From: Phycisphaerae bacterium
GTDB lineage: Bacteria; Planctomycetota; Phycisphaerae; JAJVII01
DNA: 55,540 nt
Direction: 5' to 3'
Assembly (NCBI GenBank): GCA_022072085.1
Contig: JAJVII010000029.1
Location: 1 to 55,540 of the forward strand
The notes below the pieces were generated by a model. The model did no database searches, was not told the origin of the DNA, and saw only the letters and a list, made by a program, of their open reading frames with translations. Made by a program: the position numbers and the translations under genes. Below, piece by piece: positions 11,844 to 53,970 of the stretch; the first letter of the stretch is position 1, and each line of letters starts with the position of its first letter.

Positions 11844-13511
11844 TTATCGGCTGGCGGCCCTGCCGGCCTTTGGGGTTTGGACGGGGCGAAGTTCGGTCTC
11901 CCTGCCCCGGGCGACGTCCAGGTGGCACTGCCAGTTGGCGTCGTCGGTCTGGGGATGATCCAGGCGATAGTGTACGCCCCGGCTCTCGGTCCGCCGCATC
12001 GCCGAGGCGACCAGCAGGCGGCTGACGGTGAGCATGTTCTGGAGTTCCCAGCCGACCGGATCGGTGAAGGTCTTGTCCATGACGTAGCGGGCCCAGAAGT
12101 CGATGATCTCAGCCGACTCGGTCATGCGGGCCCCTTCGCGTTCGACGCCGAGGTTGCGGCCCATCAGGCTGCGGAGGCTGTTGCGCACGTCCGTGATGTC
12201 CAGCGGGGTCCGTTCGCTACGCTTGATGGCGACTTCGAGCTTGCCCATCGCGGCGTTGGATCGCCCGGCCGCCTCGGCGCCGGCGGCTGCCCCGGCCCGG
12301 GCGCCGAAGACCATGCCCTCCAGCAGCGAGTTGCTGCCCAGGCGGTTGGCCCCGTGCAGGCCCGACGCCGTCGCCTCGCCGCAGGCGTAGAGCCCGGGCA
12401 CGGTCGTGCGGCCGTCCATGTCCACCTTCAGCCCGCCGATCATGTAGTGGGCCGCCGGCCGCACGGGAATCGGAGTGGTCCCCACGTCGATGTCGAAGCT
12501 CTCCAGCAACTCGTAGATGCCCGGGAACCGCCGGGCGAAGGTCTGCCGCCCGATATGCCGGCAGTCGAGCTGCACGTAGGTCGAGTGCGTCTGCTCCATC
12601 CGCTGCACGATTGCCCGGCTGACGATATCGCGCGGGGCCAACTCGGCCTGCGGGTGCAGGGCGGGCATGAACCGCTCGCCGTTGCGGTCGATCAGGTAGG
12701 CGCCTTCGCCGCGGACGGCCTCGGTGATCAGCGCCCGCGACGCGCCGGCGACGTAGAGCGTGGTCGGGTGGAACTGGACCATCTCCATGTCCGAGAGCGT
12801 CGCCCCGGCCCGCCAGGCGATGGCGTGCCCGTCGGCGGTGGCGACAGCGGGGTTGGTCGACTCGCGATAGAGCTGGCCCGCGCCGCCGCTGGCCAGCACG
12901 GTCGCGCCGGCCCAGATGATGAAGACGCCGTGGTCCTTCCGCCACGCGACGACGCCCCGGCAGCGGTCCCGCTCGTCGGTGATCAAGTCGACCACGAAGG
13001 TGTGGTCCATCAGCTCAATGGCCGGGTTGCGTCCGGCGGCTGCCAGCAGCGAGCGGGCGATCTCCTTGCCCGTGGCGTCGCCGTGGGCGTGGACGATGCG
13101 GCTGTGGGTGTGCCCGCCTTCGCGGGTGAAGACGAGGTGGCCGTGATCGCTGTCGAAGACCGCGCCCCAGTCGATCAGTTCGCGGACCCGCCGGGGGCCC
13201 TCGTCGACGACGACGCGGACGACCGGCTCGTCGCACAGCCCCGCGCCGCCGATCAGTGTGTCCTGGAGGTGGGACTCGACCGTGTCGCCTTCGCTGAGGA
13301 CGGCCGCGACGCCGCCCTGGGCGTAGAAGGTGTTGGACTCGGTGGGCGAGTCCTTGGTGACGACCAGGGCCTGGCCGAACCTCGACGCCTCGACCGCGGC
13401 CCGCAGCCCGGCCACGCCGCTGCCGATGATCAGGCAGTCGGTGAAATGGTGATTGAGCCGGCGGCTGTCCAGGCCCAGCAGGTATCGACGTTCCTGAAAG
13501 ATGTTGTTCAT
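11844..13511 (-). CDS. nadB: L-aspartate oxidase
   Basis: A 555-residue flavoprotein that oxidises L-aspartate to iminoaspartate, the first step of de novo NAD synthesis. I use ATG 13511 (MNNIFQERRYLLG); the open frame continues upstream, but that part is Arg-rich shadow sequence. Motifs: FAD-binding DCLIIGSGVAGLRAAVEA; NTFYAQGGVAAV; the active-site segment REGGHTHSRIVHAHGDATG; MVQFHPTTLY; and HGANRLGSNSLLEGMVFGAR. GVHYRLDHP near the C-terminus is the usual NadB ending rather than that of succinate dehydrogenase, which also lacks partner subunits here. nadA and nadC are not in the window. Transcription appears to run on into the transporter gene. Confidence 0.95.
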   Translation of the reverse strand: MNNIFQERRYLLGLDSRRLNHHFTDCLIIGSGVAGLRAAVEASRFGQALVVTKDSPTESNTFYAQGGVAAVLSEGDTVESHLQDTLIGGAGLCDEPVVRVVVDEGPRRVRELIDWGAVFDSDHGHLVFTREGGHTHSRIVHAHGDATGKEIARSLLAAAGRNPAIELMDHTFVVDLITDERDRCRGVVAWRKDHGVFIIWAGATVLASGGAGQLYRESTNPAVATADGHAIAWRAGATLSDMEMVQFHPTTLYVAGASRALITEAVRGEGAYLIDRNGERFMPALHPQAELAPRDIVSRAIVQRMEQTHSTYVQLDCRHIGRQTFARRFPGIYELLESFDIDVGTTPIPVRPAAHYMIGGLKVDMDGRTTVPGLYACGEATASGLHGANRLGSNSLLEGMVFGARAGAAAGAEAAGRSNAAMGKLEVAIKRSERTPLDITDVRNSLRSLMGRNLGVEREGARMTESAEIIDFWARYVMDKTFTDPVGWELQNMLTVSRLLVASAMRRTESRGVHYRLDHPQTDDANWQCHLDVARGRETELRPVQTPKAGRAASR

Positions 13512-36286: not shown

Positions 36287-36533
36287 TCACCACGGAGCCA
36301 CGAAGAACACAGAGAAGAAACTCATCCGCAGATTACGCTGATTGCGCAGATTCAGAAGAGAAGACTGCCCACGAAGGGCCACGAAGGACCACGAAGAGAG
36401 AGACCGAAATTCAAATCAGAATCTTCTCTGCTTCAGAACTTCGTGGTTCTTCGTGGCCCTTCGTGGGATCTCTGTCTTGTCCGAAATCTGCGAAATCTGC
36501 GTAATCTGCGGACGCCTTCTCCGTCTTCGCGGA
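36287..36533. repeat. Phrase-type giant inverted repeat, locus H
   Basis: Fills most of the 333-bp divergent gap before tilS. The inner stem pairs 36368-36396 (near-tandem CCACGAAGG units) with 36439-36467; 28 of 29 bases complement. The outer stem pairs 36325-36352 (CGCAGATT units) with 36485-36512 at 26 of 28. A third, looser layer pairs GAGCCACGAAGAACACAGAG on the left with CTTCTCCGTCTTCGCGG on the right. The loop is about 42 nt. The whole could form a hairpin with arms of about 100 nt. Confidence 0.9.
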
Positions 36534-51906: not shown

Positions 51907-52686
51907 ATGAAGATCGTCGACTCGCATTGTCACCTCACGCACGAGAAGATCGCAGTCCAGCTCGACGACGTGCTGGCCCGGGCGCGGTCGGCCGGCGTGG
52001 GGGCGTTCCTTACCGTCGGCTGCGGGCCGGAGGACGCCGCCCGGGCCGTGGCGCTGGCAGCCGGGCACGACGACGTCTGGGCGGCCGTCGGCATCCACCC
52101 CCACGACGCCGAGACGTTTTCCCCCGACGCGATGAGCCGCATCACTCCGCTGCTGGAACACGATCGCGTCGTCGCGGTCGGCGAGATCGGACTGGACTAC
52201 CACTACGACTTCTCGCCGCGAGTGGCCCAGCAGGAGGCGTTCGCCGCGCAGCTGGAGGTGGCGGCCCGGGCGGACCTGCCGGTGATTATCCACTGCCGCG
52301 AAGCCATCCCCGACGCGCTGGCGACCATCGCCCGCTGCCGGGCCGACGGCCTGGCGGTCCGCGGCGTGTTCCACTGCTTCACCGGCACGGCGGCGGAGAT
52401 CGTGCAGGTGGTCGCCGCAGGGTTCCATGTCTCGCTGGCCGGGATGGTGACTTTCAAGAAGAGCGACGAATTGCGCGACGCCGCCAGACTGATCCCGGTC
52501 GACCAACTGCTGCTGGAGACCGATTGCCCCTACCTCTCGCCCGAGCCAGTGCGCAAGGTAAAGGTGAACGAACCGGCGCATCTGCTGCACACATTCCGCT
52601 TCCTGGCCGACCTGCTGGGCGCGAGCGAACAAGAACTGGCTGAGCGAACCAACGCGAACGCGCAGTCGCTGTTCGGCATAGGCTGA
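51907..52686 (+). CDS. tatD: TatD family metal-dependent hydrolase
   Basis: A 259-residue TIM-barrel hydrolase of the TatD/YcfH DNase family. MKIVDSHCHLTHEKIAVQLD carries the first metal ligands (H7, H9). VAVGEIGLDYHYDFSPR holds the bridging Glu; LPVIIHCREAIPDALATI and GVFHCFTGTAAEI add His ligands; LLLETDCPYLSPEPVR carries the catalytic Asp. Members have 3'-5' exonuclease or D-aminoacyl-tRNA-related activity; the exact substrate is not predictable. The short distance from the -10 box implies a leaderless mRNA. Repeat locus J follows the stop. Confidence 0.94.
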   Translation: MKIVDSHCHLTHEKIAVQLDDVLARARSAGVGAFLTVGCGPEDAARAVALAAGHDDVWAAVGIHPHDAETFSPDAMSRITPLLEHDRVVAVGEIGLDYHYDFSPRVAQQEAFAAQLEVAARADLPVIIHCREAIPDALATIARCRADGLAVRGVFHCFTGTAAEIVQVVAAGFHVSLAGMVTFKKSDELRDAARLIPVDQLLLETDCPYLSPEPVRKVKVNEPAHLLHTFRFLADLLGASEQELAERTNANAQSLFGIG

Positions 52687-52692
52687 GAGCGC

Positions 52693-52893
52693 GGAATTGC
52701 AGATTGAAGATTTCAGATTGCAGATTGGGGACTCGCCCGTCCCGTTCCTGGACTGGGGGTTCTGAAAAAAACCTGGGAGAAGGGGTCCGGCACGCTTTTC
52801 GCCCCCGAGCCGGCGAAAAGCGAGCCAGACCCCGGGGTTTTTCAGAACTCCCGATTTCGAATCTGCAATCTCCAATCTGAAATCTGAAATTCC
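52693..52893. repeat. Phrase-type nested inverted repeat, locus J
   Basis: Fills the gap between tatD and moxR. The outer arms are GCAGATTGAAGATTTCAGATT-class repeats (52693-52730 and 52853-52893). The middle stem pairs 52755-52773 (GGGGGTTCTGAAAAAAACC) with 52834-52852. The inner stem pairs 52782-52803 with 52812-52833 at 20 of 22 bases (GGGGTCCGGCACGCTTTTCG class), with an 8-nt loop. The inner GGGGTC...GACCCC phrase resembles sequences found with REP-associated tyrosine transposases. Confidence 0.9.
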
Positions 52894-52959: not shown

Positions 52960-53970
52960 ATGTCCCAGGCCTCCCCTCAACAGGCCGAGCAGCGGCTGGA
53001 GCGGTTCTCCGCGACCTACGCCGCGATCCGCAGCCAACTCGCCCGTGTCATTGTCGGGCACGAGCAGGCCGTCGGCGAGGTGCTTATCGGCCTGCTGACC
53101 GGCGGCCACGTGCTGCTCGAGGGCGTGCCCGGGCTGGGCAAGACGCTGCTGGTCCGCACGGTGGCCGACTGCCTGGACCTCTCCTTCTCGCGCATCCAGT
53201 TCACCCCCGACCTGATGCCGGCCGACATCACCGGGACTGACATCGTCGTCGACGATCCCGCCGGCGGGCGCGATTTCAAGTTCCGCCCCGGGCCGATCTT
53301 CGCCAACATCGTGCTGGCCGACGAGATCAACCGGGCCACGCCCAAGACGCAGTCGGCGGTGCTGGAGGCGATGCAGGAGCGTTCGGTCACGGTCGGCCGA
53401 TCGACGCACACGCTGGCTGAGCCCTTCTTCCTGATGGCCACGCAGAACCCGCTGGAGTTGGAGGGGACTTATCCGCTGCCCGAGGCCCAGCTCGACCGGT
53501 TTGCCTACAAGGTGCTGGTCGGCTCGCCGGACGCGGAGGAACTGGTGGAGATATTCAGCCGCACGACCGTCGGCGAACAGCCGCGTGCCCAGCGCGTCGC
53601 CGACGGCCAGGCGCTGCTGGCGATGCAGCGGCTGGTGCGCGAGGCGGCGGTCGCGACGGCCGTGTCACGTTACGCCGCGGAAATCGTGCGGGCGTCGCAT
53701 CCCGAGAGCCGCAGCGCGCCGAACCTCGTCCGTCGGTATGTGCGTTACGGGGCGTCGCCGCGGGCGGGCCAGGCAATGCTGCTGGGCGGCAAGGCCCGGG
53801 CGCTGGCCGACGGACGGTTCCAAGTCGGCCTGGAGGACGTGCGGGCGCTGGCCGGCCCGGCGATGCGGCATCGGTTGATCCTGAACTTCGACGCCGAAGC
53901 TGACGGTGTCACATCCGAATCCATTCTCGCCGAGTTGCTTGCGTCCGTCCCGACGCGGGCCGATCTGTGA
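52960..53970 (+). CDS. MoxR family AAA+ ATPase
   Basis: A 336-residue AAA+ chaperone-like ATPase. ATG 52960 is preferred; a longer TTG start at 52924 would lie inside the promoter. Walker A is GVPGLGKT at 55-62, Walker B is NIVLADEINRATPKTQSAVL, and sensor 1 lies in FFLMATQNPLELEGTYPLPE. QLDRFAYKV is typical of MoxR. MoxR proteins usually work with VWA or DUF58 proteins encoded beside them to activate metal enzymes or complexes; the DUF58 gene here is about 1 kb downstream, after an epimerase gene. Confidence 0.94.
   Translation: MSQASPQQAEQRLERFSATYAAIRSQLARVIVGHEQAVGEVLIGLLTGGHVLLEGVPGLGKTLLVRTVADCLDLSFSRIQFTPDLMPADITGTDIVVDDPAGGRDFKFRPGPIFANIVLADEINRATPKTQSAVLEAMQERSVTVGRSTHTLAEPFFLMATQNPLELEGTYPLPEAQLDRFAYKVLVGSPDAEELVEIFSRTTVGEQPRAQRVADGQALLAMQRLVREAAVATAVSRYAAEIVRASHPESRSAPNLVRRYVRYGASPRAGQAMLLGGKARALADGRFQVGLEDVRALAGPAMRHRLILNFDAEADGVTSESILAELLASVPTRADL

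Follow-up and report, generated by a model that had tools for sequence, protein, structure and literature searches.

A dispersed family of GGGGTC hairpins in a Phycisphaerae bacterium, with one copy probably inserted in an older heptad palindrome

REPs and REPINs are thought to be spread by RAYTs. The REP hairpins of E. coli carry a conserved mismatch bulge that is required for cleavage by TnpA_REP (PMC8266576), and the motif GGGGWSAS has been described for the TIRYT transposases (Di Nocera et al. 2013, PMC3733652), the motif of TnpA_Y1 subclass 2.1 being given as GGGG[AT][CG]A[CG] (PMC6006769). Here we analyse a composite hairpin with a GGGGTC core that is located in the genome of a Phycisphaerae bacterium, within a stretch of 55,540 nt (contig JAJVII010000029.1 of assembly GCA_022072085.1; hereafter the window). 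The reading that we favour, with a probability of roughly two in three, is that a 97-nt non-autonomous hairpin element landed in the loop of a pre-existing heptad palindrome. The element itself is best read as belonging to a non-autonomous TIR-pair (REPIN/MITE-like) hairpin family that is now orphaned.

Nested hairpin between tatD and moxR

The composite hairpin (52693-52893) begins 7 nt past the end of tatD (51907-52686, + strand; Pfam PF01026, E 9e-79, with TIGR00010 above its cut-off) and is followed by a gene for a moxR-type AAA ATPase (52960-53970, + strand, ATG at 52960; Pfam PF07726, E 6e-62). An inverted-repeat search identified two outer arms on the + strand (52693-52726 and 52860-52893), each 34 nt in length and 85% complementary, of which the left comprises the words GATTGCA, GATTGAA, GATTTCA and GATTGCA followed by GATT. 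These enclose middle arms (52755-52777 and 52830-52852, 83% complementary) and core arms (52782-52803 and 52812-52833, 91% complementary) around a loop of 8 nt. When folded as single-stranded DNA the region reaches -64 kcal/mol, compared with -38.5 +/- 3.8 kcal/mol for shuffled sequences (z -6.64; 0 of 200 shuffles attain the observed value), which bears out the nested hairpin that the initial annotation had described. Contrary to what had been proposed, the arrangement is not symmetrical, since the left spacer between outer and inner arms measures ~29 nt and the right one 7 nt, and only the 5' side has a bulge of 8 nt (TGGGAGAA) between middle and core arms. The suggestion that three unrelated classes of word are stacked here also fails, and a scheme of three independent layers was rejected, because middle and core arms form one unit in the long copies of a repeated element. 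The locus thus consists of two layers, a 97-nt unit (middle plus core) within a separate heptad palindrome.

The 97-nt element and its copies

Searching the genome itself (5.49 Mb in 72 contigs, ~97% complete), we detected the middle plus core stretch in eight further places by blastn, and a tenth long copy (L047) was recovered with a covariance model. The element in the window (52756-52852, + strand) is therefore one of 10 long copies, with nine other intergenic sites, and these represent a dispersed family with a single conserved fold. In the alignment of nine copies the unit of ~97 nt reads as the outer-arm consensus GGnnCTCTGAAAGnCCCC, then TGGGAGAG, GGGGTCAGGCACGCTTTTCGCC, an 8-nt loop, GGCGAAAAGCGAGCCAGACCCC and the outer arm GGGGnCTTTCAGA. 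The common fold comprises an 18-bp outer stem, the 8-nt 5' bulge, a 22-position core stem mismatched at positions 7 and 11, and the 8-nt loop. In the window the outer 5' arm, which corresponds to the middle layer described above (52756-52773), pairs with 52834-52851 of the outer 3' arm (52834-52852), and these arms covary among the copies (helix 1). The bulge conserved in the copy alignment lies at 52774-52781, followed by the core 5' arm GGGGTCCGGCACGCTTTTCGCC (family consensus GGGGTCAGGCACGCTTTTCGCC) and the core 3' arm GGCGAAAAGCGAGCCAGACCCC; both core arms were delimited by inverted-repeat search and alignment, and comparison with the TIRs of TIRYTs identifies a TIR-like word in the 5' arm. 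The foot of the element is TGGGAGA(A/G), and no unpaired GTAG or CGTC tag occurs there in the copy alignment.

Long copies are not uniform. For example the L002 copy lacks the 5' outer arm, L047 has a core of the short type flanked by long arms, and the L005 copy was placed within a predicted ORF, yet its sequence reads as the junction of two minus-strand genes. The covariance model also detects ~18 shorter hairpins (GAGAGGGGGACCGGTCCCCTTTTCGCGAAGACGCGAAAAGCGGACCAGTCCCC) without outer arms in this genome, frequently within tandem composites beside other repeats. At L061, L062, L063 and L065, short-form hairpins combine with GAGTGC heptads and one CCCTCTCCCTCGC.GCGAGGGAGAGGG hairpin into tandem composites of ~185-200 nt that resemble the mosaics of BIMEs. 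Beyond this genome the element was unmatched by blastn in 60 relatives, and of the 149 other class genomes searched with the covariance model 6 gave matches, all of them shorter relatives or weak. An exact search for GGGGTCAGGCACGCNTTTNGC returned no match in 84,980 species genomes, a collection that may not include the genome of origin. The element represents a new family of TIRYT-type TIR-pair hairpins that is restricted to its lineage and which at present probably serves the host in no way beyond that of an intergenic or 3'-end hairpin.

Covariation was scored on a 38-pair structure of the aligned copies, in which 89% of cells are paired and nine pairs have changed on both sides. Such changes occupy 22 cells, a count reached by 0 of 500 shuffles, while structures slid along the alignment give at most 6; the covariation score is 0.178 compared with at most 0.087 for the slid structures. 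This signal could arise from selection, from spread of the copies from templates, or from template switching between arms. The last can produce covariation among paralogous palindromes, a point that counts against our preferred explanation. In the L006 copy (1485-1584; G000:C2:10177-10276) the element's own 3' outer arm (GGGGGCTTTCAG) seems to have been copied over the 5' core arm, which is likely to be the footprint of a template switch.

The core arms are conserved in sequence, beyond what pairing alone requires, and the two stem mismatches are recurrent. Position 7 is C52788 versus A52827 in the window; most copies have A versus A, and L008 has T versus G. Position 11 is A52792 versus A52823, and the aligned long copies have A versus A. 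Both mismatches are also present in shorter hairpins (GGGGACAGGCACC...GGAGCCAGTCCCC) from two other genomes of the class, one of them the sole family-level relative, although position 7 is paired in the relatives' hairpin at L072, and the short form of the present genome retains the mismatch at 7 and not that at 11. By analogy with the REP bulge of E. coli, the mismatches at 7 and 11 might represent recognition features. A covarying long stem combined with conserved mismatches offers a testable model of recognition.

TIRYT transposases and the GGGGTC word

The genome contains three Y1_Tnp genes, one of which encodes a RAYT-like TIRYT (L031:1468-2169) whose 74.9 bits against NF047646 fall slightly short of the curated cut-off (80). 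Among 198 genomes of the class 97 encode homologues of this resident TIRYT, so that the expected Y1 transposase does occur in the lineage, and homologues are also found in records labelled Planctomycetota, Nitrospira, Proteobacteria and Patescibacteria-type bacteria. The initial annotation had further suggested looking for a RAYT/Y1 gene flanked by the inner phrase; among the three Y1 genes of this genome none is flanked by the GGGGTC phrase, and the sole TIRYT has AGTGGACC ends, with AGTGGACCAGGTCCACT palindromes, two on each side. The cognate enzyme of the GGGGTC element is consequently absent from the assembly, and we therefore file the element as TIR-type rather than as an established TIRtron member.

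The resident TIRYT gene carries AGTGGACCWGGTCCACT palindromes at both ends (L031:1392-2193; G000:C54), with ~14 further exact sites elsewhere. Counting the four beside the gene, the palindrome has 18 exact sites genome-wide, several of which form pairs ~26-39 nt apart; at two or fewer mismatches the count is 25, compared with 3 for the control. The palindromes have dispersed beyond the gene, often as closely spaced pairs, as would be expected of a TIR or REP family spread by its own enzyme, and they look like a live, REPIN-like family. This one genome harbours a live-looking TIRYT family (AGTGGACC) beside a GGGGTC family that is probably orphaned.

We examined 72 named TIRYT loci with both flanks available for inverted repeats (score of at least 13) directly around the gene, using flanks ~600 nt away as controls. 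Such repeats surround the gene at 52 of the 72 loci and at none of 52 control flanks. They include the perfect inverted repeats AGGGGTCAGGAACCTTTTTTG, AAAAAGGGGTCAGGTACCTTT and AATTAAAGGGGTCAGACACC, and 44 of the 52 TIR-bearing loci contain GG[GT]G[AT]C (AAAAGGGGTCAGG..., AAAAGGTGTCAGG..., AAAGGGGTCGGGAGTC...), the stricter GGGGWSAS fitting 11. Within the class, 24 of 29 TIRYT loci have inverted repeats and 15 have the motif; at other Y1 loci of the class inverted repeats were found in 20 of 30, with wider flanks searched, and the motif in 0 of 30. Some relatives encode TIRYTs whose ends are GGGGTCAGG..ACCTTTT (e.g. genes in L112 and L124). The family consensus GGGGTCAG fits GGGGWSAS, and the window copy (GGGGTCCG) is one base off. 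On these sequence comparisons the core word of the element (GGGGTCAGGCAC.CTTTT) belongs to the TIR word family of the TIRYTs, HUH enzymes of TnpA_Y1 subclass 2.1. The link drawn at the outset between a GGGGTC core and RAYT-like Y1 transposases accordingly holds at the level of the word family, and the counts agree with both published motifs (PMC3733652, PMC6006769). The TIRs of TIRYTs are mostly perfect and lack the asymmetry at positions 7 and 11, so that joining two TIRs does not by itself give the hairpin; this too weighs against our preferred explanation, as do the lack in this genome of a Y1 gene with these exact ends and the missing exact match among the species genomes.

Order of events and relation to known systems

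Palindromes of degenerate 7-nt words of the GATTGCA class are found at many intergenic places in the genome, often a few bases past a stop codon, the outer heptad words being detected by blastn in dozens of places. Where the loop detector worked, the loops of element-free heptad palindromes measure ~21-45 nt; it failed at L014 and L018, and at L022 it picked out a longer pairing further inside, whose loop is 7 nt. Other word classes with periods of 7-10 form palindromes of the same type (CACGAAGG, CGAATGGACG, CACAGAGG, GAGTGCT, GTTCGAA and CTAGAGG), and most of the 28 strong inverted repeats in 455 kb are palindromes of this type. A 400-kb sample of stretches was used here in place of the whole genome. 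Nesting recurs in this genome: three nests occur in the 455 kb (52693-52893, window 36325-36512 and L139 13226-13409), two of which represent one repeat palindrome within another. In these two, CAGATTACG-type palindromes surround another class of word (CACGAAGG, CGAATGGACG), with 36325-36512 enclosing 36368-36467 and 13226-13409 enclosing 13262-13361. A literature search for heptameric inverted repeats in planctomycetes yielded no clear description, and the abundant, seemingly nested palindromes of period 7 to period 10 could prove more broadly interesting than the element itself.

Heptad palindromes occur without the element and the element occurs without them, so that the partial nesting states predicted by the initial annotation exist in this genome. 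Scripted excision of the 97-nt unit leaves a palindrome with 34-nt arms and a 36-nt loop, a normal heptad palindrome, and the parsimonious history is therefore heptad palindrome first, element second. Of the order originally proposed, outer first is plausible, with no orthologous empty site to polarise it, and the arrival of the core last as a separate insertion does not stand, since the long copies carry core and middle arms together. No orthologous tatD-moxR junction or empty site was found in the relatives examined; the sole relative in the family has parS-like palindromes, not moxR, downstream of tatD, and the others that we looked at have different neighbours there. The parS-like word TGTTCCACGTGGAACA occurs at 82 sites in that family-level relative (G001), often clustered (e.g. 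L238 2357-2600; G001:C628), far above the usual number for a ParB loading site, and at 11 sites in the present genome, where the reversed control gave 0. At first impression heptad words surround 4 of the 10 elements (window, L002, L003 and L047); a true enclosing inverted repeat after excision is present for two of the ten at score 13, where 4.7% of intergenic bases lie in such palindromes, and for one of the ten at the stricter score of 16, where 3.7% do. These figures do not show preferential landing in palindromes, the excess being not significant, and the more general idea that single-strand-DNA elements use the hairpin loops of the abundant heptad palindromes as landing pads, with palindromes stacking in a readable order, is distinctly improbable.

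The compensatory changes among copies would also be expected of a transcribed structured RNA or 3'-end element (a terminator or mRNA stabiliser) maintained by selection on RNA structure and with no history of mobility, and the long copies do sit between genes or at gene ends, some of them a few bases away. Such an origin seems unlikely, as there is no T-run after the hairpin, orientation relative to the adjacent genes varies, and Rfam at gathering threshold gives no family for the element (only two tRNAs were returned across nine sources); the conservation of core-arm sequence beyond pairing and the match of the core word to a transposase TIR word also argue against it. Replication errors (template switching or quasi-palindrome correction) could build nested palindromes without any transposase, and would account for outer arms that match within a copy and differ between copies, for the apparent arm overwriting in L006 and for the two further nests. 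We judge this quite doubtful, since it leaves unexplained both the match to TIRYT ends and the recurrence, at ten unlinked places, of a 97-nt unit that shares its core, bulge and ends.

Three separate insertions, of a heptad palindrome, then a middle palindrome, then the core, would fit with the short-form hairpins that lack middle arms and with the short-type core inside the long arms of L047. Core-less middle arms (TCTGAAAGCCCC...GGGGCTTTCAGA) were nowhere seen and the long copies have a core with homologous middle arms, so that the two parts are separable only between subfamilies and this history is very improbable. Under the favoured reading of one 97-nt element inserted in a heptad palindrome, a TIRYT would have recognised the folded single-stranded form of the GGGGTC hairpin, perhaps through stem mismatches akin to the E. 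coli REP bulge. It would have cut and rejoined the hairpin, spreading copies much as RAYTs are proposed to spread REPs and REPINs. The cognate enzyme may since have been lost from the lineage, or may lie in the missing ~3% of the assembly, and at the tatD-moxR locus the heptad palindrome would have come first and the element second. We infer mobility, mismatch recognition and the order of events from these comparisons.

To our knowledge, the TIR families of TIRYT enzymes have been little studied. Like MITEs, the element is non-coding, ~100 nt in length and bounded by terminal inverted repeats, although no target-site duplication is seen by eye and no DDE transposase is implied. It resembles the REP/REPIN families of RAYT (TnpA_REP) in being a short intergenic palindrome whose hairpin has conserved mismatches, and it is likely to depend on a Y1 HUH enzyme. 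In contrast to these, it has no GTAG foot, its outer stem is much longer, its copy number is low (10 long and ~18 short), and the flanks of the other Y1 loci in the class are different. The TIR repeats of TIRYTs (PMC3733652; subclass 2.1, PMC6006769) differ from the element in its 97-nt long form, covarying outer arms, 8-nt bulge and A-versus-A mismatches, and no gene with its exact ends is present in the genome. The two nevertheless share a core word that fits GGGGWSAS at the level of the family, an arrangement as a close inverted pair of words (a dimer) and dispersal at moderate copy number, and the TIRYT enzyme family is present in the lineage of the element.
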